DNA of 32,771 nt from NCBI GenBank assembly GCA_947627765.1, contig CANQXA010000017.1, positions 1 to 32,771 on the forward strand, in the 5' to 3' direction. Below, one piece after another: positions 12,193 to 28,125 of the stretch; position 1 is the first letter of the stretch; each line of letters begins with the position of its first letter. This DNA comes from an uncultured Clostridia bacterium. Its GTDB lineage: Bacteria; Bacillota; Clostridia; Christensenellales; Borkfalkiaceae. A program made the translations under genes and the position numbers. A model generated the notes under the pieces. That model saw only the letters and a list, made by a program, of their open reading frames with translations. It made no database searches and was not told where the DNA came from.

Positions 12193-13971
12193 TCAGCGGC
12201 GGTAGCGGGGACCGAATGCGGCACAGGCGCGGTAGTCCTGCCCCTCGGGGTCACTGCCGAAGGCGTTCCACACGGCGGGACGGAACGGTTCGCCCTCTAC
12301 GTTGTGCATCGAAACGGGGATGCGGAGCATGGAGGCGAGGGTCAAAAGGTCGGCGCCGATGTGCCCGTAGGCGATGGCTCCGTGGTTGGCGCCCCAGTGG
12401 TTCATGACGTCGTACGCGCTCTTGAAGGCACCCATGCCCGTGATACGGGGTGCAAACCAAGTGCAGGGCCATGTGTAATCGGTGCGCTTCCAAAGGGTAT
12501 CGCTCACCTCTTCGGGGAGGCAGACCGTCCAACCCTCGGCGAGCTGGAGGACCGGCCCCAACCCTTTGACGAGGTTGACCCGCACCATCGTGACGGGCAT
12601 CTCCGCCCTCGTCTCGAAGCGGGAAGAGAATCCGCCGCCGCGGAAGTACCCGAGATCGGCGTAGCACCATTTTGTCGCCGCAAGACAGTTTTCAACGTCC
12701 TCCCCGGTCATCTCCCAATGGGGTTTTACCGCGGGCTTGCCGTCTTTTAAGGCGCGGCCCGAGAAGTCGAGCGCCGACGCACCCGAATTGATGAGGTGCA
12801 AAAAGCCGTTCGCCTCCTTCGCCTTGCCCTCGATGTCATACCCCGTCACCCGCTTGACGCTCTCCCCGCTCCAACAGGTACGGACGTCGGAGAACATCGC
12901 GGCGCGCCCCGTAAGCAACTTGATAAGGAGCATGGAGACGCCGTTTAAGGTGTCGTTTTCGGTGGCGAGGACGACGGGCTCGCGCGCTCCGTCCCAATCG
13001 AAGGAGGAATTGAGGATCGCCTCCGCGAAATCGGTATTGGGAAGAAAATCCGTCCACTGCCGCTGACCCTGAAAACCGCCCGCGATTGCGTTGTGCCCGA
13101 GCGCTTCCTCGCTCTTGCCGAGGGCGGAGGAGCCCTGCATGAGGTCGCGGATGATGAGCGCGCACTTGACCGAGAATTCGAGGTCCTTCGCCTTCTTCGC
13201 GGGGGAGGCGCGAAGTTCTTCGGGATTCTTATCCAACCCTTCGAGGCATTTCGTCTTCGCCCACTTCACGGCGCGGTTGTACTCCTTTTTGTCGTAGATG
13301 CCGAGCTCGGCGCGGCGGAGGACTTCCACCTCGTCTACCGACTCCACGCGCATCCCGAGGTATTCCTCGAAGAAATTACAGTCGATAAAGGACCCTGCGA
13401 TGCCCATGCACGGGCCGCCGATCTGGAGATAGCTCTTGCCGCGCATTCCCGCACAGGCGATCGCGGCGCGCGCAAAGCGGAGCAGTTTCTCCGCGACGTC
13501 TTCGGGGATCTCCGTCGCCGAAGCGTCCTGCACGTCCTTGCCGTAGATGCCGAAGGCGGGAATCCCCTTTTGGGCATGGGCGGCAAGCACCGCGGCGAGA
13601 TAGACCGCGCCGGGGCGCTCGGTGCCGTTGAATCCCCAAACTGCCTTAATGGTGTCGGGGTCGGTGTCCATCGTCTCAGAGCCGTAGCACCAGCAGGGGG
13701 TGACGGTGAGCGTGATCTCCACGTTCTCCCGCTTAAACTGTTCGGCGCAAGCCGCCGCCTCGGCGACCCTGCCGATGGTCGTATCCGAAATGACGACCTT
13801 GACGGGCGTACCGTCCGGGTAGCGGAGCCCTCCGATGAGGGCGGCGGCGGATCTCGCCATCGTTACGGTCTGCTCTTCGAGACCTTCGCGCACTTTGAGG
13901 GCGCCGCGGCGGGCGTCTATTACGGGACGGATCCCCACGACGGGGTGGCGGCTGATTGTTTTTTTCATCAC
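12193..13971 (-). CDS. fucI: L-fucose / D-arabinose isomerase FucI
   Basis: A 592-residue protein matching full-length FucI (591 in E. coli). It interconverts L-fucose and L-fuculose and, in characterised members, D-arabinose and D-ribulose, using Mn2+. The three metal/catalytic residues are visible: Glu338 (ATENDTLNG), Asp362 (SDVRTCWS) and His530 (NHGAIAYGH). It is cytoplasmic and hexameric in the family. The start reads GTG-ATG. GTG 13971 lies six bases after GAGG; ATG 13968 is the alternative. It follows the YesL-like gene by three bases in the LacI-led operon. No fucosidase, fuculokinase or fuculose aldolase is in the window, while GH172 and three GH183 genes are. I therefore infer that D-arabinose is the natural substrate; L-fucose remains possible. 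Confidence 0.93.
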
Positions 13972-13974
13972 TGA

Positions 13975-14892
13975 TTACCTCGATTTAGGATCTTCGTCCT
14001 CCCACACGATCCCCTTCCCCGCGATCTGCGAATTCTCTCCGACATTCAAATATTTGTCAAACATGGAATTTGCGTTGAGAATGCACAGAGAAAGCGCATA
14101 TGCGGGATAGAGAACGGTAAATATCGTCGCAAACACCGACATGGTTACGGCGTTTGGGATGAGAAGGAGCGCGGGCGGAAGGAGAACGAGAAGGAGGACG
14201 CCGACGTTCCTCGGGAGCTTTGCTATAAAGAAAATGAGTGAATTTCTCCACGTCTTGAACCATGAGAGACGGTAGAGATTGCCGTGCGGGAGCGCAAAGA
14301 GCAAGCCGCCGAGCACGAAGAAGAGCACGAGCGCCGCGATCGCGATGCACACCCCTTTGAGCGCGGGGTGATAGCCCGAGGCGAGATAATAGCCCGTGAC
14401 GAACCCGAAGAAAAAGAGCGCCGCCGAAAACAGCAGGGAGGAGAGCAGGCAAAAGCCCCAATTCCCCTTGATCCCCTGCCCGAAGTCGTATGAGACGCTC
14501 ACGGGCTCTCCCCATACGAGAAGCTGTAAGACGCGCACTCCCCCTCCCAAGCCGAGAAAGAGGATCGCGTTCGTCGCAAAGGCGATGAGAAGGGCGAAGT
14601 TGTCTACGCGGGTGCGGAGAATGAAGTAGGAGAGCGCCTCGTCTCCCTCGACGGGAAGCGGAAGGGAGCCGCTCTCCACGAGGGACGGGATCATTCCCTT
14701 GACGAAAAAGCCCAGAAGGACGACCGCGGCGGTGGGCAGGGCGAAGAGGGTCAGAAGGAGACTCGTCTTCACGAGCACGCCCTTGCGGTAGCGGAAGAGC
14801 TCGGAAAAGACTTCCTTCCTCGTCCGCGGATAGAGCGGCGCCGCCTTCGCGTTCTTATACGTCCCCGTGATGAGCTTATCGAGAAGTCCCAA
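13975..14892 (-). CDS. YesL-like (DUF624-type) membrane protein
   Basis: A 305-residue protein with about six hydrophobic segments and an ending (LNANSMFDKYLNVGEN) that resembles YesL/DUF624 proteins, which commonly accompany sugar ABC-transporter operons. Its molecular job is unknown. At 305 residues it is longer than the roughly 210 of typical YesL, so the assignment is moderate. The start is TTG 14892, with GGAGG six bases upstream. It overlaps the end of the ATPase gene by 17 bases and is followed by fucI after three bases, so translation is probably coupled. Confidence 0.55.
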   Translation of the reverse strand: MGLLDKLITGTYKNAKAAPLYPRTRKEVFSELFRYRKGVLVKTSLLLTLFALPTAAVVLLGFFVKGMIPSLVESGSLPLPVEGDEALSYFILRTRVDNFALLIAFATNAILFLGLGGGVRVLQLLVWGEPVSVSYDFGQGIKGNWGFCLLSSLLFSAALFFFGFVTGYYLASGYHPALKGVCIAIAALVLFFVLGGLLFALPHGNLYRLSWFKTWRNSLIFFIAKLPRNVGVLLLVLLPPALLLIPNAVTMSVFATIFTVLYPAYALSLCILNANSMFDKYLNVGENSQIAGKGIVWEDEDPKSR

Positions 14893-16540
14893 GGTCCGCC
14901 TCCACGCGCGCCGTCTCCTTGAAATAGACGGGATAATCGGCGCCGACGATCACCGCGACGTACGCTTCGGGCTCCCCGCAGTAGAGGAGATGCCGCTTGC
15001 CGAGGCATTCGTCCGCGAGGATCCTCAGTTGCTTGCCGTGTTTGGAGAGGCGGGACATCCGCCCTCGCACGGCATGGCAGGCGAGAAGGCGTTCCCCTTC
15101 GCCGTCTTCCAGCTGAAGATCTACGGGGGAGAAGGTCAGCGCGACCTGTTCGCCCGCGCGGTAGCTCCCCTTCCCCGACGAAAAGACAAAGGAGCCCAGC
15201 CCTTCGATTTCGGCGAGGATCACTTCGTCCGACGCGCGCGGATATACGCCCCCGATCAGGGCGGGGAGGGAAAGCGTCGCGCCTTCCCCGCGGTCGGGCC
15301 CCGCGGCGGGGAGGGACAGGACGACGTCGCCCAAAGAGGTCTCGTCGATCACGAACTCCGCGAGCGGAGCGCGGAGCGTATGGCCACCCGCTTCCACGAT
15401 GAGATCGTCGCCTTCGAGACGGGCGTGCGCGGGGAAACGGTTGCGGTCGGGCGGGGCGAGGAGAGAGCGCTCTGAGACGGGGTCGAAGTAATTCGCGTAT
15501 ACCATGTCCGCGACAAGGTGCACGGAAATGCCCGATTCCACCCGTTCTCTTCCGCCGAGAAGGACGGTGGTCTCCCCGCGGGCGGGCGCAGAAATGTGGA
15601 GATAGGAATTGGAACCGAGCGTCTCGAGCGTCTCCGTGACCGCTTCGAATCCGCCCGTCTCCGCAAGGTGCAGATGTTCGGGGCGGAGCCCCAAGACTAC
15701 CCGCCCTCCGACGTATTTTTTGAGGCGGGGCATTGTCTCTTTGGGGATCTCGAGCCGCCCGCTTGCGAGCACGGCATAGAGCTTCCCGTCCTCCTCGGCG
15801 AGATCGGCGTCGAAGAGGTTCATCGGCGGTGATCCCATGAACGTCGCGACGAACAGATTGGCGGGATGGTCGTAGATCTGGACGGGCGTATCGTACTGTT
15901 GCAGGTAGCCGTCGCGGAGGACGGCGATGCGCGTCCCCATCGTGAGCGCCTCGGTCTGGTCATGGGTGACGTAGACAAAGGTGGTCTTGAGTTTTTCGTG
16001 GAGACGGATGAGCTCACTGCGCATGGAGGCGCGCAGTTTTGCGTCGAGATTGGAGAGCGGCTCGTCGAGCAGGAAGACGCGGGGCTGGCAGACGATCGCC
16101 CTGCCGAGCGCGACGCGCTGCTTCTGTCCGCCGCTGAGCTGGGCGGGCTTGCGGGTGAGAAGCTGTTTGATGCCGAGGATCTCCGCCGCCTCTTCGACCC
16201 GCCGTTTGATCTCCTTGCGGTCCGTCTTCTGCAATTTGAGGCGGAACGCGATGTTCTCGTAGACGGTGAGGTGCGGAAAGAGAGCGTAATTTTGGAAAAC
16301 CATGGCGACATTGCGGTCCTTCGCGGGAAGCTCGTTGACAAGCTCGCCGTCGAAGCGGAGTTCGCCGAAGCTCACTTCCTCCAATCCCGCGATCATGCGC
16401 AGGACGGTGGATTTTCCGCAGCCCGACGGCCCCACAAGGACGATGAAGTCCTCCGCGCCGATCTCGAGGGAGAGATCGTGTACGGCGTGGACCTTGCCGT
16501 CGTAGATCTTATTGACCTTTCTCAGAGAAATCTCTGCCAT
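14876..16540 (-). CDS. Sugar-importer ABC ATPase (UgpC/MsmX type) with extended C-terminus
   Basis: A 554-residue protein. Residues 1-235 are a canonical CUT1 sugar-importer ATPase: Walker A GPSGCGKST (37-45), signature LSGGQ (135-139), Walker B FLLDEP (156-161), and THDQTEA. A regulatory OB/TOBE domain follows (about 240-355, with LGLRPEHLHLAE). Related ATPases end near 360-380 residues; this one continues for about 195 more, apparently with further OB/TOBE-like strands. It should power the permease pair at 24.7-26.5 kb, which has no ATPase of its own. The start is ATG 16540 (MAEISLRKVN). The open frame extends to 16891 but that part runs inside the lacI-type gene. Eight bases separate it from the regulator. 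Confidence 0.9.
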   Translation of the reverse strand: MAEISLRKVNKIYDGKVHAVHDLSLEIGAEDFIVLVGPSGCGKSTVLRMIAGLEEVSFGELRFDGELVNELPAKDRNVAMVFQNYALFPHLTVYENIAFRLKLQKTDRKEIKRRVEEAAEILGIKQLLTRKPAQLSGGQKQRVALGRAIVCQPRVFLLDEPLSNLDAKLRASMRSELIRLHEKLKTTFVYVTHDQTEALTMGTRIAVLRDGYLQQYDTPVQIYDHPANLFVATFMGSPPMNLFDADLAEEDGKLYAVLASGRLEIPKETMPRLKKYVGGRVVLGLRPEHLHLAETGGFEAVTETLETLGSNSYLHISAPARGETTVLLGGRERVESGISVHLVADMVYANYFDPVSERSLLAPPDRNRFPAHARLEGDDLIVEAGGHTLRAPLAEFVIDETSLGDVVLSLPAAGPDRGEGATLSLPALIGGVYPRASDEVILAEIEGLGSFVFSSGKGSYRAGEQVALTFSPVDLQLEDGEGERLLACHAVRGRMSRLSKHGKQLRILADECLGKRHLLYCGEPEAYVAVIVGADYPVYFKETARVEADLGTSR

Positions 16541-16548
16541 TTGACTCC

Positions 16549-17547
16549 TTATTCGCTCGACTCCCGCTCGATAAGCGTGGGTTTGAGCGTGATGTTGCGG
16601 ATTTTCGTGTTGCCCTCGATGCGCTCCAAAAGGCGCAGGGCGAGCTGTTCGCCGAGGCTGTACTGGCACATATCGACGGAGGTCAGCGTGGGAGAACTGA
16701 CGAGGGCGTAGTCGGTGTTGTCGAAGCTCACGAGCCGAAGATCTCCGGGGACGCTGAGCCCGTGCTCCCTGCAAGAGCGCAGAACGCCGTAAGCCGCAAG
16801 GTCGTTGGCGGCGATGACGCCGTCTACGGGGATCCCCCGCTCCAAAAAGCGGTTGAACGCCTCGTATGCGCCGCTCGTGTTGTAGCGGCAATCGACGATG
16901 TAGGCGGGATCTTCGGGAAGGGAGCGCCTTCCCAGCGCGCGGAGGAAGCCCTCGGTGCGCTCGCGGCTCGTCTGATCCTCGCGGCTGCCCGTAAGCAGAA
17001 GCACGTTCTTACAGCCCTTATCGAAGAGATGGTCGGCGGCGAGCTCCATGCCGTAGATGTGATCGACGTAGACGTAGTCGAAAGGATCGTCTTCCCGCTG
17101 TCCGAGGTAGCGGTTGCCGAGGATGACGGGCCGCCCGATCCTGCGGATCGCCCCGATGTTCTCCTCGCAGAAGTTGAAGGAAATGAGGATCACGCCGTCG
17201 CAATACTTCTGTTGGAGAAGGGAGAGCATTTTCAGCTCTTTGGCGATCTCCTTCTCGGTGGAGCAGAGCATGACGTAGTAGTCATTCTCCTCGAGGACCT
17301 TGGAGGCGCCCTGTATCATGCGGAAATAGAAGGGATTGCAGATGTCGGGAATGCAGAGCAGGATGCGCTGGGTACGGTTGTTGCGGAGGGTCTTCGCGGA
17401 GAGGTTGGGCGTGTAGTTGAGCGTACTCGCCGCCTCATAGATGATCTCCTTCGTCTTGGGTTTGCAATAGCCCTTATTGCTGAGCGCCCTTGCGACGGTC
17501 GTAGAAGAAAAGCCCGTTAGTTTCGCAATGTCGTAAATGCTGCTCAT
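16549..17547 (-). CDS. LacI-family transcriptional regulator
   Basis: A 332-residue repressor. An N-terminal helix-turn-helix (MSSIYDIAKLTGFSSTTVARAL) is followed by the hinge region (NLSAKTLRNN) with the leucine that in this family wedges into a central CpG step. A periplasmic-binding-protein-like sugar-sensing domain follows, with family landmarks GVIAANDLAAYGVL and LVSFDNTDYA. It should bind palindromic DNA with a central CG and release it on binding a sugar. Three such palindromes (centre ATCGAT) lie in the leader of the transporter operon at 27.95-28.08 kb, so it is the obvious candidate to control them; no copy lies at its own promoter. ATG 17547 has GAGGAG four bases upstream. It leads the operon with the ATPase, YesL-like gene and fucI. 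Confidence 0.92.
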   Translation of the reverse strand: MSSIYDIAKLTGFSSTTVARALSNKGYCKPKTKEIIYEAASTLNYTPNLSAKTLRNNRTQRILLCIPDICNPFYFRMIQGASKVLEENDYYVMLCSTEKEIAKELKMLSLLQQKYCDGVILISFNFCEENIGAIRRIGRPVILGNRYLGQREDDPFDYVYVDHIYGMELAADHLFDKGCKNVLLLTGSREDQTSRERTEGFLRALGRRSLPEDPAYIVDCRYNTSGAYEAFNRFLERGIPVDGVIAANDLAAYGVLRSCREHGLSVPGDLRLVSFDNTDYALVSSPTLTSVDMCQYSLGEQLALRLLERIEGNTKIRNITLKPTLIERESSE

Positions 17548-17560
17548 GAATGCTCCTCGG

Positions 17561-17593: not shown

Positions 17594-17599
17594 TAATAA

Positions 17600-17629
17600 A
17601 TTATACAACGGAAGAGGCTGCCGTGTCAA
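17600..17629 (-). promoter_or_regulatory. Sigma-A promoter of the LacI-ATPase-YesL-fucI operon
   Basis: On the minus strand TTGACA (17624-17629) and TATAAT (17600-17605), both perfect, are 18 bases apart. The start would be near 17593, giving a leader of about 45 bases that contains the GC hairpin. Confidence 0.85.
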
Positions 17630-17651: not shown

Positions 17652-18890
17652 TCATTTGAGCACGATTTTCATGAGCGAAGAGTTGTAGACCGGCATCCAT
17701 TGGGAGAGCACGAGATAGAACGTTTTTCCGTTGTCTTCCGTCCATTTCTCGTGGACGATCCCTGCGTAAATGCTGTGCACGTCGTTCTCGAAGGGGAAGC
17801 TGTAATGCACGAGCGTGCGCGGTTCGCTGTAAGGTCCCCAGATCTTGTCCGCCGTGCGGCAGACGATCCCCGCGCCGCCGTCGATGAGATAGACGACCAT
17901 CCATTGCCCGAGATAGGCGTTGTACATCGCGGACTGCTCGGAGCAACGGTCGCTGACGATATAGGCGCCGCGGTTCTTTTCCACCGTTTCGAGCCCCGCG
18001 TGCCCTTTGAGCCAAACGGGGTTGTCCTCTTCATCAATGCCGTTGAAATACTCGTACGCCTCGAAGCGCTCGATGTCGGCATAGGCGACCCTTCCGAGAC
18101 GGATCCCGCCCTTCCTGTATCCCCCTTCGCCGAGGATATAGACGTAGCCGTCCTTTCCGTCGATGGGGAAGATCTGCGTGAAGGAATACCCAGAATGGGT
18201 CTCCATCGTGACGACCTTCCCGCCGTCCGCCATGTCGATGGTTTGGTTGGCGAGCCGCTCGATCTCCTCCTTCCGCTCGGGAAGGGAGGGATCGAGCCAG
18301 CTGAGGTCGTTGACCCGCTCCCACGTGGCGCCGCCGTCCTCCGACTTCACGCACCCGCCGTAATTCATCGAATAGTTCGCCTCGACGTTCCACGAATACT
18401 TGGAGAAGTAGAAATAGTACATCACGCCGTTGACCTCGATCCCGCCCGTGGGGATCTTGGTCATCTCATAGCGGTCGATGTGCTGACCCTCGAAGATCGC
18501 CGAAGCGACGACGCCGTTCCCCTTGAAGGATTCGAAGGAGATGCCGTCCGAAAGGTCGAAATCTTTGGTGATCCCGAGGACGTTGCTCCTCCAAAGTCCG
18601 CTCTGGTTGGAGGCGTTCATGAAGGTGTCGCCGAACGCGACGTACATGGTACCGTTGGTCTTGTTGTAGATGGGGAAACCGAGGTCGGTCCCCCCGACCT
18701 GCCAATTCTCCTTGGTATCGACGGGCGCCCCGGGTCCCGTGAGATAGCTGTGCCAAGAGACGCTGTCTACCGAGGCGTCGTAGCTGATTTTATCCTGATC
18801 GTCGTCCATGGGACCTCCCTTTCCTCCGCACCCGAAGAGGGCGAAGGCGCTGAATGCCGCGAGCGTTACCGCAAAAATTTTCCGTTTCAT
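17652..18890 (-). CDS. DUF4185 (GH183) lipoprotein, paralogue 1; candidate endo-D-arabinofuranase
   Basis: A 412-residue secreted lipoprotein with a basic N-terminus, a hydrophobic stretch and the lipobox LFGC (lipidated Cys21). The rest is one DUF4185 domain, a predicted beta-propeller. The signature acids are Asp69 in GTDLG and Asp88 in FGDTF, 19 residues apart as in the other two paralogues. DUF4185 is family GH183, whose studied members are endo-D-arabinofuranases cutting D-arabinan. I infer the same activity on the outer membrane face; the catalytic residues are not proven from this sequence. Repeated aromatic blade motifs are visible (NYGGCVKSEDGG, AMYNAYLGQW, YAGIVHEKW). It is the last of three tandem copies, seven bases after paralogue 2, and shares with it an almost identical 255-bp stretch. 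Confidence 0.85.
   Translation of the reverse strand: MKRKIFAVTLAAFSAFALFGCGGKGGPMDDDQDKISYDASVDSVSWHSYLTGPGAPVDTKENWQVGGTDLGFPIYNKTNGTMYVAFGDTFMNASNQSGLWRSNVLGITKDFDLSDGISFESFKGNGVVASAIFEGQHIDRYEMTKIPTGGIEVNGVMYYFYFSKYSWNVEANYSMNYGGCVKSEDGGATWERVNDLSWLDPSLPERKEEIERLANQTIDMADGGKVVTMETHSGYSFTQIFPIDGKDGYVYILGEGGYRKGGIRLGRVAYADIERFEAYEYFNGIDEEDNPVWLKGHAGLETVEKNRGAYIVSDRCSEQSAMYNAYLGQWMVVYLIDGGAGIVCRTADKIWGPYSEPRTLVHYSFPFENDVHSIYAGIVHEKWTEDNGKTFYLVLSQWMPVYNSSLMKIVLK
18475..18729. repeat. Near-identical patch shared by GH183 paralogues 1 and 2
   Basis: Bases 18475-18729 match 19736-19990 at a constant offset of 1261 with a single difference (18696 G against 19957 C); the first 221 bases are identical. 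Identity falls sharply on both sides. It encodes the N-terminal third of the domain, including the TDLG and FGDTF motifs. Confidence 0.93.
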
Positions 18891-18897
18891 AACCCAC

Positions 18898-20145
18898 CTA
18901 TACGAGTGTGATCCTCATGACAGAGGAATTGTAGACGGGCTTCCACTGCGATATGACGAGGTAGAACACTTTACCGTTCTGTTCCGTCCATTTCTCGTGG
19001 ACGATGCCCGCATACAGGCTTGCCGATTGGTTGGGGAAGGGATACTGCCCTCCCGCGGGGACGAGCGTCATGGGCGCGCTCCACGGTCCCCAGATCTTGT
19101 CTGCCGTACGGTAGACGATGCCCGTGCCGGGAAGAAGGTAGGTCACCATCCACTTCCCGAGATAGGCGTTGTACATCGCCGACTGCTCGGAGCATTTCCC
19201 GTCGCAAATATAGCTGTTTGCGTTCTTCTCCGCTTCGAGGAGCCCCTCGTGCCCTTTGAGCCAAACGGGGTTGCCCTCTTCGTCAATGCCGTTGAAATAC
19301 TCGTACGCCCCGAAGCTCTCGATGTCGGCATAGGCGACCCGCGCGAGACGGATCCCGCCCGAGCGGTACCCGCCCTCGCCGAAGAGGTAGATGTAGCCGT
19401 CCTTGCCGTCCAAGGGGAAGATCTGCGTGAAGGAGAAGCCCGAATGGGTCTCCATCGTGACGACCTTCCCGCCGTCCGCCATGTCGATGGTCTGGTTGGC
19501 GAGCTGTTCGATGTCGTCTTTATGCGAGGGAAGGGAGGGATCGAGCCAGCTGAGGTCGTTGACCCGCTCCCATGTGGCGCCGCCGTCCTCCGACTTCACG
19601 CACCCGCCGTAGTTCATCGATTTGGCGACGGGGATCTCCGCGGTGTACGTCCATGTGTTCTTGGAGAAATAGTAGTAGTACATCACGCCGTTGACTTCGA
19701 CCCCGCCCGTCGGGATCCGCGTCATCTCGTAGTAATCGATGTGCTGACCCTCGAAGATCGCCGAAGCGACGACGCCGTTCCCCTTGAAGGATTCGAAGGA
19801 GATGCCGTCCGAAAGGTCGAAATCTTTGGTGATCCCGAGGACGTTGCTCCTCCAAAGTCCGCTCTGGTTGGAGGCGTTCATGAAGGTGTCGCCGAACGCG
19901 ACGTACATGGTACCGTTGGTCTTGTTGTAGATGGGGAAACCGAGGTCGGTCCCCCCCACCTGCCAATTCTCCTTGGTATCGACGGGCGCCTCGGGTCCCG
20001 TAAGATAGGCGATATATTCGACGTCGTCCACCGAGGGATCGTAGCTGAGTTTGGTGTGGGGAGGGTCGGACGGTCCGCCGCACCCGAAGAGGGCAAAGGC
20101 GCACAGGAGAGCGACGGGCAGAGCTGCCGTTTTTATGATCTTCAT
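18898..20145 (-). CDS. DUF4185 (GH183) lipoprotein, paralogue 2; candidate endo-D-arabinofuranase
   Basis: A 415-residue lipoprotein with the lipobox LFGC (Cys22) and one DUF4185/GH183 domain. The conserved pair is Asp67 (GTDLG) and Asp86 (FGDTF). It matches paralogue 1 along its length, but insertions and substitutions make the C-terminal half clearly divergent, for example TYTAEIPVAKSMNYGG against VEANYSMNYGG. Such changes may tune substrate length or branching. The start is ATG 20145 after GAGGTGA; the gap to paralogue 3 is eight bases and to paralogue 1 seven, so all three are co-translated. Secreted endo-acting cleavage of D-arabinan is inferred from the family. Confidence 0.85.
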   Translation of the reverse strand: MKIIKTAALPVALLCAFALFGCGGPSDPPHTKLSYDPSVDDVEYIAYLTGPEAPVDTKENWQVGGTDLGFPIYNKTNGTMYVAFGDTFMNASNQSGLWRSNVLGITKDFDLSDGISFESFKGNGVVASAIFEGQHIDYYEMTRIPTGGVEVNGVMYYYYFSKNTWTYTAEIPVAKSMNYGGCVKSEDGGATWERVNDLSWLDPSLPSHKDDIEQLANQTIDMADGGKVVTMETHSGFSFTQIFPLDGKDGYIYLFGEGGYRSGGIRLARVAYADIESFGAYEYFNGIDEEGNPVWLKGHEGLLEAEKNANSYICDGKCSEQSAMYNAYLGKWMVTYLLPGTGIVYRTADKIWGPWSAPMTLVPAGGQYPFPNQSASLYAGIVHEKWTEQNGKVFYLVISQWKPVYNSSVMRITLV

Positions 20146-20153: not shown

Positions 20154-21407
20154 TCACGCGAAGACGACTTCGATCAAATGGACGTTGTAGGTCGGATACC
20201 ACTCCGAGACGAAGAGATAGATGCGCTTACCGTCGTGATCGCTCATCGCGGCGTGGCTGAATCCGCCGTAGAGCCCTTGCAAATTGGATTGGTCCATGAT
20301 GATGTCCGAAGCCGACCAGTCGCCCCAAGGCGTCGCGCTTCTGCGGATGACGATCTTGGAATTGTTCTGCATATAGCTCATGACATAGCGTTGGAGATAG
20401 GCGTTGTAGTGAACGGAGATCTCCCCGCACGAGGGGGCGACGATATAGCTATTGTTGTCCGTCTTGATGCTTTTAAGCCCGTTGGACCCCTTGCGCCATG
20501 TGACGGTCCCGCTCGCGTCCTTGCTCTTGTAGTACTCGTAGGACTCGAAGTCCTCGATGTCGCCGTAGGCGACCCTGCCGAGCTTGACGCCGCCGCTCCT
20601 GCCGCCCGGAATGCCATAGATATAGACGTAGCCGTCGCCGCCGTCGAGCGGATAGATCTGCCCGAAGTTGGGCGCGATCCCCGCGGTCTGACCGGCGTCT
20701 TTCGAGACCCATTCGAGCCCCTCGACGCGCGTCCACGTCTGCCCTTTGTCGGAGGACTTGACCACGCAACTGCGGTAGACGTCCCATTCGCCCGTGGCGT
20801 CGAACGCGCCGACTTCCATATACCAAAGGTAATACGTCCCGCCGAGGACGAGCCCGCCCGTCGGGATACAGGTGGTCGCGCCCGCGGTGACGTCCCCCGC
20901 ATGGGCGCCGTCTCCCCAATACTTACGGTTGGAGTCGACGACATTCTGCGGAAGAGGGGTGACGGTGCGGGTGGAGCCGTTCTGCCCCGGCAGGGCGCCC
21001 TGCCAATTCACGCCCTTCGTGAAGTCGAGATCGTCGGTATAGAGAATGACGTTTGTGTTCCATTCCCTGCCGCCGTCCGGCGTCGCGTTGTTATTGGTAT
21101 CGCCGAAGGCGGCATACAGCCTGCCGAGCTCTTCGTCGTAGAAGGCGAATCCCAAGTCGGTCGCCGTCATGTTCCATTGAGATGTGTTCACGTGCGCATT
21201 CGGACCAGTGGCGAACCCGAGATCGCGGACGTAGAAGATACGGTCGGAATACGACCAGCTGTTTTCGGGGACCGTCCACTCTTCCGCGGGCGGGTCGTCG
21301 CCGGGACCCGGTTTGGGATCTTTGGGTTCTGTGGGTTTCCCGCAGCCTGCGAAGACTGCGAGCGCGCCGAAGAGCAACGCAAATGCTCCGATCAAACTCT
21401 TTTTCAT
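20154..21407 (-). CDS. DUF4185 (GH183) lipoprotein, paralogue 3; candidate endo-D-arabinofuranase
   Basis: A 417-residue lipoprotein: signal peptide with lipobox AGC (Cys22), a Pro/Asp-rich linker (about 23-45), then the DUF4185/GH183 domain. The conserved acids are Asp84 (ATDLG) and Asp103 (FGDTNNN), again 19 apart. Protein similarity to the other two copies is only moderate, so this is the older branch. Motifs such as SCVVKSSDKGQTW, HYNAYLQRY and LYGGFSHAAM line up with the blades of paralogues 1 and 2. The ribosome site TAGGAGGT precedes ATG 21407. It is first of the three copies, directly after the surface protein. It could have a different arabinan linkage preference from the other pair. 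Confidence 0.83.
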   Translation of the reverse strand: MKKSLIGAFALLFGALAVFAGCGKPTEPKDPKPGPGDDPPAEEWTVPENSWSYSDRIFYVRDLGFATGPNAHVNTSQWNMTATDLGFAFYDEELGRLYAAFGDTNNNATPDGGREWNTNVILYTDDLDFTKGVNWQGALPGQNGSTRTVTPLPQNVVDSNRKYWGDGAHAGDVTAGATTCIPTGGLVLGGTYYLWYMEVGAFDATGEWDVYRSCVVKSSDKGQTWTRVEGLEWVSKDAGQTAGIAPNFGQIYPLDGGDGYVYIYGIPGGRSGGVKLGRVAYGDIEDFESYEYYKSKDASGTVTWRKGSNGLKSIKTDNNSYIVAPSCGEISVHYNAYLQRYVMSYMQNNSKIVIRRSATPWGDWSASDIIMDQSNLQGLYGGFSHAAMSDHDGKRIYLFVSEWYPTYNVHLIEVVFA

Positions 21408-21481: not shown

Positions 21482-23389
21482 TCAGTGCTTTTTCTTCTTG
21501 ACGACGACGATCACGGCGGCTACGATCGCAACGGCCGCGACTGCCGCGATGACGATCCCCGCGATGGCGCCCGTCGAGAGCCCGCCGCCATCGCCGCCCG
21601 TTGCGGGAGGATTGCTCGCGATGTTGCCCGAGACGGTGACCGTAAAGGTGCATTCCCCGCCGAGCGTGGTGATCTTGAAGGTGTGGGAACCGTTCGTCAG
21701 CGTGGAGAGATATTCCTTCTTCAACGTGAGGACGGTGTCGTTCTCGGTGAGGGTGTAGTTGGTCGCCGCAACGGTCGCCGTACCCTCTTTCAAGGTGTTG
21801 ATCTTATACTCTTTGAGATCGACATGGAAGACGAGATCGGCGGGAGAGGCGCCGTTGAACGTCGCGGCCGTCTCGGTGACTTCGGGGATCTCGGCATTCT
21901 CACTGCCCTCTTCGACCCAGCGATCGAGGCTGACGTTGTCGATATAGACTGCGGACTCGCCCTGAATGCTGTAGAGGAAGCGGAGAGAGTTGGTGGCGTT
22001 GAGGAAGGAGAAATCGACGATGAAGCTCATCTCGACGTTCGTATAGCCGTTTTCGCCGTCGGTGTACTTGATATCCCACTTCGCGACGTTGGCGTTGCCC
22101 TCGTTGGTCTGGGCAGGCTTGGTGATGAGGTTGATCTCATGGTAGGCGGTGTTGGACGCGCCGACGAAACAGACGTTGGTGTTGCCCGAGGCGATCTCGC
22201 CCACGAACTTGTAGGAGAATTTGAGGGTGACGATGTCGCCCAGCCCGATCTCGGGAGCGGTCATGCAGAACGCGGAGGAGAACGTCTTTTCGGAGCCCTC
22301 TTTTCTGCCGAGACGGAGCACATGATTGCCGTTGTCGTCCACAATCACGCCGGGATCGTCGTAGTTGGCGAGGGAACCCCAAGCCTCGTCGGTCTGCGCG
22401 TCGCTGAACGTAAGCCCGATGTCATAGCTCTCGAAGTCGCCGCCGAGCATCGTCGCGACGAGCTCGTAGCCCTCCGTCGTCTCGGGGATCGTAGCGGTTT
22501 TGAGATAGACGGTGATGACCAGCTCGACGCTACCGTTTGCGGTCGCCGCCACGAGGGTGTGGTCGCCTTCGCCGAGGGACTTCACATAGCCGGAATCGAT
22601 CGTGAGCTTGCCCGAGGCGGCGTCGAAGGTGTACTCGCCCTCTTCGAGCTCATACTCCGATTCCTTCTCCATGACCTTGGTCAGCTCCGCGCCTTTGAGA
22701 TCGAGGGTGAACTCGACGTCCGCGGCGCTCTCCTCTCTCCAGATCTTGCTCGCCCCGCCTACGGCTTCGGGCGCGTCCTCTTCGGGAATGATACGGCGGA
22801 TGCTGATGTCGTCCATATCGAGCACGTTCGCCGTGTTGCCCATCGTGTTGAACCACATCGAGAAGGAATCGATCTTGGAGAGATTTGCCTCGGGGACGTT
22901 ATAGGTCTCGGTGAGGGTAAACCACTCGTTGGCTTCCGCCGCGTTGATCTCGTTCTTCCAGCCCTTGCTGTCGATCCCGTTGTTGTAGAAACGGAATCCG
23001 AAGTTGTCGGTCGTAACGAAGCCCTCATGCTTTCTGAGCCGCATACTGACCTGATAGTCGCCCCCTTCGGTGAGCCTCATCATCGAAAAGATGGAGGCAA
23101 ACCCGCGCGATCCGTCGTATTTGAGTTCGAGGTAGACGTTGTCCCCCTCTTTCTTTGCAACGGCGGGGCTGTCGGCGTTCAGAGTCCCCGTCTTCTCTCT
23201 CTGCGTTTCCGAGAGAGTATATGTCTCCTCGCCTTCGAGGAGCATCCCGTCGAAGCCGGGGCACGGGAACATCTCCGCGCCCAGCTGAGGAGAGGCTTCC
23301 TCCGCGGAGACGTGCATCAACCCGGGAACCGAGATCCCCGCGACCAGCGTACAAGCAAGTACCGCTGCCAAAAGTCCTTTTGTCTTCAT
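21482..23389 (-). CDS. Cell-surface protein with two beta-sandwich plus X2-like repeats and a C-terminal membrane anchor
   Basis: A 635-residue exported protein. A signal peptide (1-29, ending HVSA) is followed by two copies of a two-domain unit. Each has a beta-sandwich region resembling carbohydrate-binding modules (about 40-205 and 310-490; both end in a similar DMDDISIRR / YIDNVSLDR strand) and an Ig-like X2 domain (about 215-300 and 505-590; GEYTFDAASGKLTI and NYTLTENDTVLTL). A Gly-rich linker, one membrane helix (605-630) and KKKKH complete it, a type I membrane anchor. No catalytic motif is seen. I infer that it binds the polysaccharide at the cell surface and presents it to the GH183 lipoproteins encoded just downstream. 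AAGGAG precedes ATG 23389. Ligand identity is unknown. Confidence 0.75.
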   Translation of the reverse strand: MKTKGLLAAVLACTLVAGISVPGLMHVSAEEASPQLGAEMFPCPGFDGMLLEGEETYTLSETQREKTGTLNADSPAVAKKEGDNVYLELKYDGSRGFASIFSMMRLTEGGDYQVSMRLRKHEGFVTTDNFGFRFYNNGIDSKGWKNEINAAEANEWFTLTETYNVPEANLSKIDSFSMWFNTMGNTANVLDMDDISIRRIIPEEDAPEAVGGASKIWREESAADVEFTLDLKGAELTKVMEKESEYELEEGEYTFDAASGKLTIDSGYVKSLGEGDHTLVAATANGSVELVITVYLKTATIPETTEGYELVATMLGGDFESYDIGLTFSDAQTDEAWGSLANYDDPGVIVDDNGNHVLRLGRKEGSEKTFSSAFCMTAPEIGLGDIVTLKFSYKFVGEIASGNTNVCFVGASNTAYHEINLITKPAQTNEGNANVAKWDIKYTDGENGYTNVEMSFIVDFSFLNATNSLRFLYSIQGESAVYIDNVSLDRWVEEGSENAEIPEVTETAATFNGASPADLVFHVDLKEYKINTLKEGTATVAATNYTLTENDTVLTLKKEYLSTLTNGSHTFKITTLGGECTFTVTVSGNIASNPPATGGDGGGLSTGAIAGIVIAAVAAVAIVAAVIVVVKKKKH

Positions 23390-23581: not shown

Positions 23582-24676
23582 TTACGGCTTTTCCAAAACG
23601 ATCCTGTTTTCTCTGCGCAGGATCTCTTCGTCTACGGGAAGGCGCTCCGCGGCGGGCGGAAGCGGAAAACTTGCCCGCACGGGTTCGGTCTGATACCAAT
23701 ACGCCGTCGTAGACCAATCGTCGCTCCTGTGATTGCAGTGCCCGTGCTCGATCGTGACTTTGATCTCGCGGTCGAAGTAGACGGGATCGGCAATGTGGTA
23801 GCGGTAGTAGGTGATCTTGCCCTTCCAATTATCCCTTCCGCCGAGGATGAGCCCGTGGTAGGGCGCGCTGTATTCCTCAGTCGGGCACCACGCCATGTTG
23901 ACGTAATCCTCCGTGCCCGTGCCGTTCAGCGTGGGCATGGGGTCGCCGTCGATGAAGATCATATCGTCTCCCTCGCCCGGCCAATCCCAAAGATCGGAAG
24001 TGGAGAGGTTGTGGATGTTGACGTTACAGCCGCAGTAGTGCCCCTTCCCCTTCGTGCGGAGGACGAGATAGTTCTCCCCGCCTTGAAGGTTCTCCCCTTC
24101 GAAGCACCACGCGTCGTGGCTCTCCATCGAGGCGGGCGAAACGCCCTTCGTCGGGCATTCCCTGCGCCATGTCGCGTGGAAATAGAGGAGATCGTCCGCA
24201 AACGTCTCGTATTCCTCGTAGTCCACATAGTAGTAGAAAATGAGGTCGGTGTTGCACTCGTTGGTGACGGTCAGCCGCGCGCTCCTGTAAGGCATGGGCC
24301 ACCAGCAGTTGAAGCCCTTGCCGTTTTCGGGAGACATTTGGAGGGGCGCAGAGACGAAATTGCGGCTTTGGGCGTGCCCCATGCCGAAGAAATCCCCGAT
24401 GGGCGCCTCTACGCTGGGCTCCGCGGAGCCGTTCCAATAGAAGCGGAGCACGACCTTGCGGTAGCAGTTCTTTTCGAGCTCGAATCCCGCGTTGTTGAGC
24501 GTGATCCAAATATGGCAGATACAGCCCGGCTTCTCCATGCGGGCGAATTCGTAGGTCTCGCCCGGCTTGACGTACACCCTGTCGTCGTTTCCGCCCGTCC
24601 TGTCGTAACTCGAAGCCCGTCTCCGCTTGGCGTCGCGCCTCTTACAGACGGTCGCGAGGTTGTTGGGTAAATACAT
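23582..24676 (-). CDS. GH172 (DUF2961) glycoside hydrolase, probably cytoplasmic
   Basis: A 364-residue enzyme of DUF2961/GH172, a family with fructofuranosidase/difructose-anhydride and D-arabinofuranosidase activities. The two catalytic glutamates known in the family are 21 residues apart; here Glu235 (PGEGDD) and Glu256 (GTGTEDY) keep that spacing. The family's end motif is present (HGHCN, TAYWYQTEP). No signal peptide, so it should act inside the cell on imported oligosaccharides, releasing single sugars; beside GH183 genes and FucI, D-arabinose is the best guess. GAGGAAC precedes ATG 24676. It lies 18 bases after the permease gene in the same operon. Confidence 0.87.
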   Translation of the reverse strand: MYLPNNLATVCKRRDAKRRRASSYDRTGGNDDRVYVKPGETYEFARMEKPGCICHIWITLNNAGFELEKNCYRKVVLRFYWNGSAEPSVEAPIGDFFGMGHAQSRNFVSAPLQMSPENGKGFNCWWPMPYRSARLTVTNECNTDLIFYYYVDYEEYETFADDLLYFHATWRRECPTKGVSPASMESHDAWCFEGENLQGGENYLVLRTKGKGHYCGCNVNIHNLSTSDLWDWPGEGDDMIFIDGDPMPTLNGTGTEDYVNMAWCPTEEYSAPYHGLILGGRDNWKGKITYYRYHIADPVYFDREIKVTIEHGHCNHRSDDWSTTAYWYQTEPVRASFPLPPAAERLPVDEEILRRENRIVLEKP

Positions 24677-24694
24677 ATTGGTTCCTCTTTATGC

Positions 24695-25531
24695 TTATTT
24701 GAGTCCGCTGATGGCGATCCCCGCGACGATCTTCTTCTGAAAGATCGCAAAGATCAAAAGGGGCGGGGCGATGGCGAGCAAGGTCGCCGCGATGACGATC
24801 CCGTATTCGCCGGAGTAGCTCGTCTTGAGCACGCGGATCACCTGCATGACCTGCGCGATGGACGAATTGTTGATGATGGTGAGCGTGGGCCACATGAAGC
24901 TGTTCCAATAGCCCATAAAGGTGCTCACGCCGATGATGATCATGGGCGTCACAGACATGGGGAGGAAGATCCTCAAAAAGACGCCGAAGGGTTTGCATCC
25001 GTCGATCGCCGCCGCCTCCTCGAGGGACGCGGGCATCCCGAGATAAAACTGTCGGAAGAAAAAGATGTTGTATCCCGAGACGAGACCGGGCAGGATGAGC
25101 ACGGCGAGGCTGTCCGTCATTCCGAGGGCGCTCACGACGCGGATGGAAGTGAGCAGAATGGTGATGGACGGGATGAACATCGTCGCGAGGAAGTAGACCC
25201 AAAGGAATTTCTTGCCGCGGAATTCGAGGCGGGCAAAGACGTACGCCGCCGTCATGTTGACGGCAAGGCTCCCGACGACGCTGACCGTCGCGACCAAAAA
25301 GGTGGCGCCGAGGCTCCGTAAGAAGTTGTAGCCGTTGTGGTTGAGGCTGAAGATCTTCTCGAAGTTCTCCGTCGTGAAGTGCTTGGGGAAGAAGGTATTG
25401 GGGATCTGCCAGATCTCCCGCTTGGATTTGAACGCCGCGGGGAGCATCCAAATGATGGGAAAGAGGATGATCGCGATGACCAAAACCGTCACGATATAGC
25501 AGAGGACCTTGTTTGCCGTGATCTTTTTCAT
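24695..25531 (-). CDS. Carbohydrate ABC transporter permease, MalG type
   Basis: A 278-residue permease with six hydrophobic segments and the cytoplasmic EAA loop (EEAAAIDGCKPFGVFLRIFLP, about residues 170-190) that docks on the ATPase. It forms a heterodimer with the adjacent MalF-type subunit in a CUT1 sugar importer. GGAGG precedes ATG 25531, nine bases after the MalF-type gene. No ATPase lies in this part of the cluster; the UgpC-type ATPase at 14876-16540 fits. Imported cargo is inferred to be arabino-oligosaccharides. Confidence 0.92.
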   Translation of the reverse strand: MKKITANKVLCYIVTVLVIAIILFPIIWMLPAAFKSKREIWQIPNTFFPKHFTTENFEKIFSLNHNGYNFLRSLGATFLVATVSVVGSLAVNMTAAYVFARLEFRGKKFLWVYFLATMFIPSITILLTSIRVVSALGMTDSLAVLILPGLVSGYNIFFFRQFYLGMPASLEEAAAIDGCKPFGVFLRIFLPMSVTPMIIIGVSTFMGYWNSFMWPTLTIINNSSIAQVMQVIRVLKTSYSGEYGIVIAATLLAIAPPLLIFAIFQKKIVAGIAISGLK

Positions 25532-25540
25532 ATCCGCCTC

Positions 25541-26488
25541 CTATAGGTCCTGACTCTTTTCGGAGCGCACCGCTTTGAACACGAAGGCGTTCACCGCGGC
25601 GATGAAGAGCATGACGACGATGGCGCCCGCGATCGTGGAGTTTTCGGGACGGTTGGCGTCGCGGAAACAGTTGAAGAGGTAGAGGACGGGGGTGAGGGTC
25701 TTTTTGAGGGGACCGCCGCCCGTCATCATATAGGGCACCTCCATCATCTGCATATTCGCCGTCACGAGGTTGATCACGATGAGCACGAAGTAGTTCTTCA
25801 TGTTGGGGATCGTGATGTGGATCATCTTCCGCCAGCCGTTCGCCCCGTCGATGGACGCCGCCTCGTAGTATTCCTTGGGAATGTTGAGGATGCCCGCGTA
25901 CATCACGAGGGTGTTGTAGCCGAAGCCCAGCCAAATGGTGGGCACGATGACGGCGATGTAGGGCAGGATCCCCTGCGTCTCGAAGGCGACGGGATCGGCG
26001 CCCAGCGAGATCAAAATGGAATTGATGAGCCCGCCGCCGAAGTTGGTCAGAAGGGAGAAGATGATGGACGCGATGATCCCCGAGATGAAGAAGGGAACGT
26101 AGATGAGCGTCTTCGCCACGCTCCCGAGGCGGTTGTTCATGTTTTTGAGAACAAGCGCGAACAGGAAGGTGAGAACGACCATGCTCACCGTGATGACCGC
26201 CGTGAAGAGCAGGGCGTTGCCGAAGGAGATCAGAAAGTCGCTCGCCGCGCCGCTCTTGAAGAGCGCTTTGAGCCCGAGGACGTATTCGTAGTTGTAGAAC
26301 CATACGAACTTGCCCGTGCGGTACTCCTGAAAACTCCTCACGACCGCCATCAGAAGCGGAACGATGACGAACACGGTCAGAAGAAGGAACGCGGGCAGAA
26401 GCATACAGTAGGCATACTTCGCGTTCCGGTAGCGGAATCTGTTGCGCCGCCGCCTGTCGGGGCGGTCCATCGGGTTAAATTCAGCCAT
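25541..26488 (-). CDS. Carbohydrate ABC transporter permease, MalF type
   Basis: A 315-residue permease with six membrane segments, a basic cytoplasmic N-terminus (RPDRRRRNRFRYRN) and the EAA loop (EAASIDGANGWRKMIHITIP). It pairs with the MalG-type subunit encoded next. GAGGGGG lies about 8 bases before ATG 26488, and 22 bases separate it from the binding-protein gene, so all three transport genes are one unit. Confidence 0.92.
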   Translation of the reverse strand: MAEFNPMDRPDRRRRNRFRYRNAKYAYCMLLPAFLLLTVFVIVPLLMAVVRSFQEYRTGKFVWFYNYEYVLGLKALFKSGAASDFLISFGNALLFTAVITVSMVVLTFLFALVLKNMNNRLGSVAKTLIYVPFFISGIIASIIFSLLTNFGGGLINSILISLGADPVAFETQGILPYIAVIVPTIWLGFGYNTLVMYAGILNIPKEYYEAASIDGANGWRKMIHITIPNMKNYFVLIVINLVTANMQMMEVPYMMTGGGPLKKTLTPVLYLFNCFRDANRPENSTIAGAIVVMLFIAAVNAFVFKAVRSEKSQDL

Positions 26489-26510
26489 GGGTATACGCCC
26501 CCTCGTCCGT

Positions 26511-27869
26511 TCAGCCCGCGGAATATGCGGGATTTCTGCCTTGCTGCTCCATCATGCGCTCGATCTTCGAGACGCAGGCCTTGATCTGCTGTTCGATGAG
26601 CGTAGTCTTGTTGGCGTTGGAATTGAGCGCGACGTACTCGAGCATCCCCGAGACTGCCGTGGAGATCTCCCACGAATAGGTGGGCTCGGGAATGGCGAGG
26701 GAGCAGACCTCCGTGACGACGTTGAGCCAATCGCGAAGATCTTCGCGGGCGTTCTCGGCGATATATTGTTGCACGCTCTTGGTCACCGCGCTCTTGGAAT
26801 AGCAGGCGGCTTCGAAGAAGCGGGCTGTGCGGGCGGCGTCTTCCGCGAAGAACCACTCGAGCACCTTCGCCGCGAGATCCTTGTGCTTGCTCGCCGAGGA
26901 GACGCAATACGTCCAGCCGCCGTTGGAGGCGGTCGTCTCGCCCGAGTTGCCCGAAAGGGTGGGAAGAGGCACCACGCCGATCTTGTCTTTGAGGTCGGGA
27001 TAGGAGTTCATGATCTCGGCAATGGACCACGAGCCCGCGAACGTCATGGCGAGCTTATTCATGCAGAGACCTTCGATGATGTCGTTGTACCCTCTCGCCG
27101 TCACGTTGCCCGCGGGAACGTAGCCGCCCGCATAGAGGTCGTACCAAAGACCCGCAAGGGCGCGGTAGCCGTCGCAGTCCACGAGGCACTCCGTCCATTC
27201 ATCGTTGAGCGCGACCGAGCCAGCCGCATTGTATTGGAGCCCGTAGGTCGCCCAGCCGAGCGCGGAATAGATGGGAAGCCCGAGGGTGTACTGCCCCTTG
27301 CCGAGCACGGGTTTGATCTTCGCGCAGACGCTGAGAAGATCCGCCCAAGACTTGGGAGGTTCGGTCACACCCGCTTCGAGGAAGATGTCTTTGCGGTAGA
27401 AGAGGAGGGCGGACGCCTCGGTGAGCTGGGGATAGGCGTAAACGTTGCCGCCGAAGGTCACCATGGGTTTTACGGTATCCGTAATGTCGTCGAGATATTC
27501 GTCCTTCATGAGCCCGTTGAGGGGTTCGGCGTAGTCGTGGGAGACAACGGTGCCGTAGAGATTTCCGTAACTGCACATAAAGATGTCGGGCGCGTTGCCG
27601 CTCTCGCGGGCGGAAGCAAGAGCGTCGGGATAGGCTTCATCCTGGAAGAAACGCGCTTCGAGCTGGATGCCGTCCTCGAGGTTGGAGTTAAATTCGTCGA
27701 TCATCTTGTTCATGTGCTCGTTGCTCCATGCCTCGAAGTCTTGCAGGTAGACAACGACTTTCGTCGCACCCGCTTCGACTTTTCCGCCCCCTCCGCCTCC
27801 GCAGCCCGCAAAGGAAAGAAGGGAGAGCGAGGTGACCGCAGCAAGCCCGATCGCCAACAGTTTTTTCAT
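26511..27869 (-). CDS. Sugar-binding lipoprotein of the ABC importer
   Basis: This 452-residue extracellular solute-binding protein belongs to family 1 (MalE-like). A signal peptide ends in the lipobox SFAGC (lipidated Cys23), followed by a Gly run and the two-lobed binding fold. Recognisable are the early strand TKVVVYLQDFEAW, a central PKSWADLLSVCAKIKP and SASKHKDLAAKVLEWF. It captures oligosaccharides outside the membrane and delivers them to the MalF/MalG-type permeases. GGAGG lies eight bases before ATG 27869. It is the first gene of the cluster, downstream of the operator-bearing leader of about 220 bases. Confidence 0.92.
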   Translation of the reverse strand: MKKLLAIGLAAVTSLSLLSFAGCGGGGGGKVEAGATKVVVYLQDFEAWSNEHMNKMIDEFNSNLEDGIQLEARFFQDEAYPDALASARESGNAPDIFMCSYGNLYGTVVSHDYAEPLNGLMKDEYLDDITDTVKPMVTFGGNVYAYPQLTEASALLFYRKDIFLEAGVTEPPKSWADLLSVCAKIKPVLGKGQYTLGLPIYSALGWATYGLQYNAAGSVALNDEWTECLVDCDGYRALAGLWYDLYAGGYVPAGNVTARGYNDIIEGLCMNKLAMTFAGSWSIAEIMNSYPDLKDKIGVVPLPTLSGNSGETTASNGGWTYCVSSASKHKDLAAKVLEWFFAEDAARTARFFEAACYSKSAVTKSVQQYIAENAREDLRDWLNVVTEVCSLAIPEPTYSWEISTAVSGMLEYVALNSNANKTTLIEQQIKACVSKIERMMEQQGRNPAYSAG

Positions 27870-27951
27870 CTTGGATCCTCCGTTTTGAAATTAGTCTTTG
27901 CCGTTTTCCCTCCCCTATTCTTCCGCTTAGTGGGGAGATCGTACCATCGGT

Positions 27952-27967
27952 ATGACATCGATGACAT
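27952..27967. promoter_or_regulatory. Operator site 1 (ATGNNATCGATNNCAT)
   Basis: ATGACATCGATGACAT is a 16-base near-palindrome centred on ATCGAT. It lies inside the transcribed leader of the binding-protein operon, about 125 bases downstream of the predicted start. It has the central CpG that LacI-family repressors prefer. Confidence 0.75.
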
Positions 27968-28006
27968 TTTTTCGGAAAAAAATAGCGGGAAAGTACGGCG
28001 CCCGAA

Positions 28007-28028
28007 AATATGGTATCGATTTCATATT
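28007..28028. promoter_or_regulatory. Operator site 2 (extended palindrome)
   Basis: The core ATGGTATCGATTTCAT (28010-28025) is flanked by AAT and ATT, making a 22-base dyad. The centre lies 58 bases from site 1 and 56 from site 3. Confidence 0.75.
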
Positions 28029-28062
28029 GTCCCAAAAAAAGAATCGGGTGTTCCCTCTTCAC

Positions 28063-28084
28063 AAAATGACATCGATAACATTTT
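28063..28084. promoter_or_regulatory. Operator site 3 next to the transcription start
   Basis: The core ATGACATCGATAACAT (28066-28081) has AAA and TTT flanks, making a 22-base dyad. It starts about six bases downstream of the predicted start, a position suited to blocking RNA polymerase. Confidence 0.78.
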
Positions 28085-28096
28085 TTCTTTGTCACA

Positions 28097-28125
28097 ATAT
28101 TACACCATTCTTCTCATTTTGTCAA
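28097..28125 (-). promoter_or_regulatory. Sigma-A promoter of the transporter / arabinan operon
   Basis: On the minus strand TTGACA (28120-28125) and TAATAT (28097-28102) are 17 bases apart, in AT-rich DNA. The predicted start is near 28090. It drives the binding protein and probably all genes down to 17652. Confidence 0.83.

Follow-up and report, generated by a model that had tools for sequence, protein, structure and literature searches.

A putative D-arabinan utilisation operon with an ABC importer in an uncultured Clostridia bacterium

According to the main text of the report that describes it (PMC10509167), the D-arabinan locus of Microbacterium arabinogalactanolyticum holds four GH183 genes together with GH172, GH116, an ATP-binding cassette (ABC) importer and a putative isomerase and kinase, and is induced by D-arabinose and by cell-wall extract. 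The same text explains fructose versus arabinose specificity in GH172 by Gly299 of the enzyme aFFase1, which admits fructose, as against Asn253 of ExoMA1. DgGH172c of Dysgonomonas gadei acts on para-nitrophenyl-α-D-arabinofuranoside (pNP-α-D-Araf), and the GH172 enzymes tested freed arabinose from lipoarabinomannan (main text of PMC10115798); aFFase1 of Bifidobacterium dentium itself cleaves α-D-Araf as well as α-D-fructofuranosides (α-D-Fruf), and homologues of it in gut Clostridia were noted earlier (accessible text of PMC8605356). Here we describe a minus-strand operon (positions 12193 to 28125) within a 32,771-nucleotide stretch of DNA (the ‘window’) from an uncultured Clostridia bacterium, the window being one entire contig (CANQXA010000017.1) of a 1.46-Mb, 46-contig assembly (G000) that is ~93% complete.

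The operon and its predicted enzymes

We consider it very probable that this operon is a utilisation system for α-linked D-arabinofuranose glycans (D-arabinan of the mycobacterial/corynebacterial type, or something similar) in a Clostridia-type bacterium; a reading that draws on the observed gene content, the catalytic residues and fold of the encoded proteins, a set of operator-like sites, and the association of such genes with others of D-arabinose type in relatives. Gene calls were made by Pfam and NCBIfam profile searches, with the starts of the LacI and ATPase genes read from the sequence. Along the minus strand they give, in order, a solute-binding protein (SBP), permeases A and B, GH172, a CBM_X2 protein, three GH183 proteins, a LacI regulator, a MalK-type ATPase, a MusI-like membrane protein and FucI; each gene that the initial annotation had listed was recovered there, at nearly identical coordinates.

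The three GH183 proteins (GH183a, 20154-21407; GH183b, 18898-20145; GH183c, 17652-18890; all on the minus strand, as are the other operon genes given below) match PF13810 (DUF4185) with 215.7-224.7 bits against a cut-off of 39.5 (224.7 for GH183b, 224.6 for GH183c), and each carries a lipobox motif. The catalytic Asp pair and third Glu (D33, D51 and E243 of EndoMA1) are present, as is the five-bladed propeller fold, and we predict that all three are endo-D-arabinanases. Alongside its catalytic residues GH183b keeps the Arg, Trp and Tyr, with P141 replaced by Thr; GH183c, with catalytic residues likewise kept, has Glu for P141 and Ile for L292. GH183b and GH183c share 79% protein and 85% DNA identity, and GH183c is, as far as the sequences tell, a recent duplicate of GH183b.

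Next to these lies the gene for a predicted surface glycan-binding protein (21482-23389), composed of a signal peptide, a sandwich resembling a carbohydrate-binding module (CBM), an X2 domain, a second CBM-like sandwich, a second X2 and a transmembrane tail ending in KKKKH. Its fold was compared by VIA-align, a comparison that barely tests residues outside 35-203, and Foldseek with the whole protein returned mainly immunoglobulin chains, which is uninformative.

GH172 (DUF2961; 23582-24676) matches PF11175 with 274.4 bits (cut-off 27), conserves both catalytic Glu residues and, by eye, has no signal peptide at its N-terminus; we predict an intracellular exo-α-D-arabinofuranosidase. In alignment, its specificity column holds a Cys, as in DgGH172c and BACUNI_00161, with Gly299 at this column in aFFase1 and Asn253 in ExoMA1. 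A tree, built with printed fragments of the solved chains and showing a long aFFase1 branch, groups the window protein with GH183-linked family sequences and one from a genome without GH183 (G093), in the half that holds aFFase1 and DgGH172c; ExoMA1 falls in the other half.

The importer comprises a CUT1-type solute-binding lipoprotein (26511-27869; PF01547, 113 bits; PF13416, 94.9 bits; with a lipobox), whose closest solved chains are mostly sugar-binding proteins, permeases A (25541-26488) and B (24695-25531), both PF00528, and a MalK-type ATPase with a C-terminal extension (14876-16540; ABC_tran, OB_MalK, TOBE_2). A membrane protein encoded at 13975-14892 has a weak match to the MusI family (19.7 bits, cut-off 160) and none in Pfam. 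The LacI-family regulator (PF00356, PF13377) occupies 16549-17547, its start at ~17547 being placed by eye. FucI (12193-13971) reaches 975.9 bits with the NCBIfam L-fucose isomerase model (cut-off 775); its best solved relative is a ‘D-arabinose isomerase’ (3a9r, 807.4 bits) and L-fucose isomerases score up to 796.6 bits, such that these scores do not discriminate between the two sugars. FucI is predicted to turn D-arabinose into D-ribulose.

We propose a scheme whose substrates, step order, kinase and polymer source are inferred. Three surface lipoprotein GH183 endo-D-arabinanases would cut the chain, with the membrane-anchored two-CBM protein holding them near it; the LacI-controlled CUT1 importer would bring in the resulting oligosaccharides, from which cytoplasmic GH172 would free D-arabinose; FucI would then make D-ribulose, to be phosphorylated by a kinase encoded elsewhere, and the product would enter the pentose phosphate pathway. 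Much the same sequence of surface cleavage, import, intracellular trimming and isomerisation had been put forward in the initial annotation, and it is supported by the catalytic residues and fold described above and by the operators and co-occurrence described below.

Operators and related genomes

Three LacI-family operators lie at 27953-28080 on the minus strand, TGACATCGATGACA (27953), TGGTATCGATTTCA (28011) and TGACATCGATAACA (28067), between the SBP start and a promoter-like site just upstream (28125-28096). The window contains their pattern, TGNNATCGATNNCA, three times, always within 27953-28080, against 0.03 expected, and no shuffle gave three. A promoter-like site before LacI (TTGACA-18-TATAAT; 17600-17629, minus strand) matches sigma-70 at 12/12 positions, so LacI, the ATPase and FucI may be transcribed independently of the repressed part; the scan of the region found 9 promoter-like sites with 5.0 expected. 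Five relatives carry exact operator matches at their GH183 loci. In G098 and G140 the match precedes the SBP gene, and in G627 it falls where the longest SBP reading frame begins; G494 has one where its GH183 frame begins and another between its kinase and LacI genes, and in G049 a longer operon is headed by it. A copy with one mismatch is present in G542. Over loci L040-L059 (370,913 bases) 5 sites were observed against 0.05 expected under a first-order Markov model, and LacI homologues near GH183 in other genomes are 44-55% identical. One exact match was also seen in a FucI locus (G262).

Within the genus, GH183 was found in one of 41 sampled genomes (G000 only), within the family in 10 of 251 (9 strong) and in a sample of the class in 7 of 391 (4 strong). 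Excluded from the 9 strong family carriers is G193, with one partial match of 39.8 bits (112 of 309 positions). Across the 251 family genomes GH172 occurs in 17, FucI in 85 and a strong KdsD-clade arabinose-5-phosphate (A5P) isomerase in 10; GH172 accompanies strong GH183 in every one of the 9 carriers (Fisher 2.6e-12) and the isomerase does so in 7 of them (Fisher 3.7e-10), figures that become 9/10 and 7/10 with G193 included. In 7/7 the distance from the isomerase gene to a GH183 gene is no more than ~1.1 kb. As the substrate of this enzyme is a phosphate of D-arabinose, we regard the linkage as the strongest independent indication of the food of GH183/GH172 systems. Of the two carriers that lack the isomerase, G000 has FucI in the operon and shows no strong match to a KdsD-clade isomerase among the matches listed, and in G072 FucI is on a different contig, a xylulokinase-like FGGY gene being close to the GH183s; G223 has the isomerase plus a FucI fragment.

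An A5P isomerase was counted at no less than 161 bits (10 genomes; the next match has 124.8 bits, and weaker KpsF-model matches were left out), and this count rests on the matches listed. KpsF-model matches of any strength at E 0.001 occur in 231 of the 251 genomes and none reached the family cut-off of 203.7; the short SIS proteins lack the CBS half and for that reason stay under the full-length cut-offs, with ~153 of 268 model positions covered. The SIS proteins beside GH183 in G098, G223 and G070 score 186-201 bits with the best KdsD or KpsF/GutQ model versus 44-49 with HxlB; for the G494 protein, which is more distant, the values are 120 versus 57. Solved relatives of the G098 protein include a phosphosugar isomerase (5uqi, 192.9 bits) and an arabinose-5-phosphate isomerase (2xhz, 146.6 bits). 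The stretches GKSG, EAxHGD, EAD and HPxGALG are common to the SIS proteins and 5uqi, with departures in G494; GKSG, EAxHGD and HPxGALG presumably hold active-site residues.

At most of the isomerase loci near GH183 (L043:15041-16560, L044:8250-10717, L042:4885-6538, L046:5911-7412, L047:1841-3342, L045:7671-8252, L041:16338-16943 and L058:5390-5980) a ribokinase-type kinase adjoins; among the 7 GH183 carriers that have the isomerase a PfkB kinase does so in 5 (G098, G140, G053, G070 and G083). In G223 a kinase adjoins a second isomerase on another contig, and in G049 a kinase is found close to an additional isomerase stretch, seemingly broken, at that genome's other GH183 locus. This stretch (L040:1490-1949, that is G049:C1:75489-75948) was matched as two neighbouring pieces that differ in frame, next to a PfkB kinase, and an intact copy stands at another G049 GH183 locus. 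The ribokinase model cut-off is passed by the G098 and G070 kinases and narrowly missed by that of G494. Unlike KdsD and GutQ, the relatives' SIS proteins have no CBS half and sit beside GH183 and often a ribokinase-type kinase, a setting from which we predict a catabolic role as opposed to one in the synthesis of 3-deoxy-D-manno-octulosonic acid (Kdo). Isomerase and kinase together probably form a route from D-arabinose through D-arabinose-5-phosphate to D-ribulose-5-phosphate.

The genomes G053 (from the related genus g14) and G070, of ~1.1-1.2 Mb, show a strong expansion of GH183, at loci L047, L049, L051, L053, L055, L059, L104, L105 and L226 in G053 and L046, L050, L052, L054, L102, L103 and L227 in G070. 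In G053, 14 GH183 domains were counted (one of them partial, at a contig end), some terminating proteins of 798-2235 amino acids; these are not assembly duplicates, as the nearest other copy is only 40-78% identical. In genomes without GH183, a divergent ‘DNGTED’ clade of GH172 adjoins or clusters with FucI and PfkB-like kinases (L176:6342-9194, L177:8442-11297, L178:254-12573 and L179:2435-15402), in two cases with a CUT1 importer like that of the window; perhaps these loci serve short D-arabinofuranosides. Proteins of 741-771 amino acids with a DUF6259 domain, candidates for another exo-enzyme, are encoded in GH183 and/or GH172 loci (L056:11698-13923, L057:3192-5417 and L178:2258-6866) that contain no GH116 gene, G542 and G627 having GH116 elsewhere.

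Alternatives and surroundings

Several observations weigh against the D-arabinan reading. No GH116 was found in G000 (0 matches to PF04685; with the genome 93% complete the absence is unproven), which means that β-capped ends would stay uncut, and neither was a dedicated pentulokinase, the two FGGY proteins of this genome being the glycerol kinase GlpK and one that falls below all listed model cut-offs. No D-ribulose kinase appears among the Pfam matches of the operon genes, PfkB-type kinases elsewhere in G000 not having been searched for. To call the system ‘complete’, as had been done initially, is too strong on both counts. GH183a has Phe in place of the stacking Trp138. GH172 alone is weak evidence, since the window protein lies in the same large clade as aFFase1, an enzyme of dual α-D-Araf and α-D-Fruf activity; a grouping with fructan enzymes had been named at the outset as a sign against D-arabinan, but this clade also holds the D-arabinan-active DgGH172c, and the specificity column is Cys and not Gly, such that the objection is neither borne out nor fully cleared. 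Among the relatives, FucI is not enriched with GH183 (3/9 versus 82/242, p = 1.0) and was rejected as its marker; 8 of the 17 GH172 carriers, and 3 of the 10 isomerase carriers (G150, G153 and G179), have no strong GH183; and, with the genomes related and the 9 carriers amounting to 6 genera, the counts overstate the number of independent events. Lastly, a search that allowed one mismatch found no operator ahead of the SBP gene in G223 or at G049's second locus, and the examined G053 and G070 loci gave no exact match.

The lack of a GH116 match for the β-linked ends of mycobacterial arabinan also lends something to the possible, if doubtful, view that the same machinery has another D-Araf glycan as its natural substrate (O-antigens or pilin glycans with α-D-Araf) in place of mycobacterial/corynebacterial arabinogalactan/lipoarabinomannan; D-Araf also occurs in the pili of P. 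aeruginosa PA7 and the O-antigen of Stenotrophomonas (accessible text of PMC10115798 and PMC8605356), but three GH183s with predicted endo action, plus a surface protein with two CBMs, fit a polymer better than short decorations. That FucI is common in the family irrespective of GH183, and carries the NCBIfam name L-fucose isomerase, would suit a role in L-fucose use with GH183 and GH172 acting on an unrelated furanoside. We hold this to be highly unlikely: no fucosidase, fuculokinase or fuculose-phosphate aldolase was recognised among the operon genes, the GH183 carriers have either the A5P isomerase, a D-arabinose-type enzyme (7 of 9), or FucI (the other 2), and in G163 and G153, both without GH183, 12 bp separate GH172 from FucI. 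Extremely unlikely, in our view, is a fructan or difructose-anhydride locus with GH172 as an α-fructofuranosidase; the match of GH172 to aFFase1 (254.9 bits, with a best match of 258.2), their shared clade, and the LacI and ABC importer of the B. dentium aFFase1 operon (accessible text of PMC8605356) would all accord with it, yet the window enzyme has Cys in place of the Gly that lets in the hydroxymethyl of fructose, and the operon's Pfam matches include no GH32, unlike the aFFase1 operon, and on these two grounds it was rejected as the main explanation; nor do GH183, FucI and the relatives' A5P isomerase have an obvious role in fructan use. Least probable of those considered is a weapon or attachment system, in which the GH183s open the envelopes of corynebacterium-like neighbours for predation or epibiosis and feeding is secondary: such a life has been proposed for Mycosynbacter amalyticus (main text of PMC10115798) and might suit the small genomes and GH183 expansion of g14 (14 domains in the ~1.2 Mb of G053), but the window enzymes are tied to an importer, GH172, FucI and a LacI-type operon, a layout for nutrition.

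Carrying the D-arabinan reading over to the relatives, we lean towards a picture in which D-arabinan operons with an ABC importer form a family in gut Clostridia, many of them sharing one type of LacI operator, with an exchangeable entry step (FucI in the window and G072, or else a ribokinase-type kinase plus the KdsD-clade isomerase found in 7 of the 9 strong GH183 carriers) and with genus g14 as an extreme D-arabinan specialist. If true, small-genome Clostridia would feed on D-arabinan and would draw nutrition, probably in the guts of animals, from the envelopes of corynebacteria and their kin; arabinogalactan work would gain a candidate operator, candidate enzymes and a candidate for a surface protein that binds arabinan, and with the relatives' isomerase/kinase pair a new D-arabinose route would be open to direct test.

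A gene of GH127 (the β-L-arabinofuranosidase family) lies at 30583-32409 on the minus strand, separated from the operon by tRNA-Ala and tRNA-Val. We did not adopt it as the missing β-enzyme: the tRNA genes intervene, no operator was found nearby, and GH127 is found in 31 of 41 genus genomes against one for GH183. The base composition of the operon (0.596) equals that of its flanks (0.591 and 0.584), and a foreign origin by this measure was rejected. An empty-site analysis via the flanking glycosylase gene gave no clean empty site; in G019 and G012 its neighbours include homologues of the window genes at 3.1-5.4 kb, which indicates that the region is rearranged. Between the operon leader and the tRNA genes (28300-28520) there are two near-identical copies of ‘gtcatcctgccccgaccgaagttt ... 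aaggtcgg ... gaaggatcccgaagtacgaagtccg’.

Comparison with known systems

In the window, predicted secreted GH183, predicted cytoplasmic GH172, a sugar ABC importer and an isomerase stand in one locus, a combination also seen in Microbacterium. Both loci have several GH183s, GH172 without a signal sequence, an ABC importer whose binding protein is of the SBP_bac_8 type, and a putative isomerase, and the division into extracellular cutting and intracellular trimming described for the Microbacterium locus (EndoMA1/2, ExoMA1 and ExoMA2) would hold for the window too (main text of PMC10509167). Microbacterium belongs to Actinomycetota and has GH116 and a putative kinase in its locus, whereas the host of the window is Clostridia-type and its operon has neither; EndoMA1 has its own C-terminal putative CBM, whereas the window has single-domain lipoprotein GH183s and a separate membrane-anchored two-CBM protein (main text of PMC10509167). 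The window GH172 also lies outside the ExoMA1 clade, on the DgGH172c/aFFase1 side.

PUL42 of D. gadei resembles the window in having GH183 and a GH172 with the same Cys (DgGH172c), and its predicted fucose isomerase was the most abundant carbohydrate-active enzyme on D-arabinan (main text of PMC10115798); it is, however, a polysaccharide utilisation locus (PUL) of Bacteroidota, whereas the window has an ABC importer and LacI. The aFFase1 operon shares LacI, an ABC importer and GH172 with the window, but is directed at fructose, with GH32 and Gly299, and no GH183 is named for it in the accessible text of PMC8605356.

The initial annotation had thought an ABC-importer system for D-arabinan to be novel in Bacillota. 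That view is partly wrong, an ABC-importer locus for D-arabinan being already published for Microbacterium; ‘Bacillota’, ‘Firmicutes’ and ‘Clostridi’ are absent from that main text (PMC10509167), and also from the main text of PMC10115798. By title and start of abstract, in a search with subscription journals mostly outside it, we found no publication on D-arabinan or GH183 systems of Clostridia and no description of a kinase plus A5P isomerase as a catabolic route. The kind of system is thus known from other phyla; what looks new is its presence in this lineage, together with two interchangeable routes for D-arabinose.

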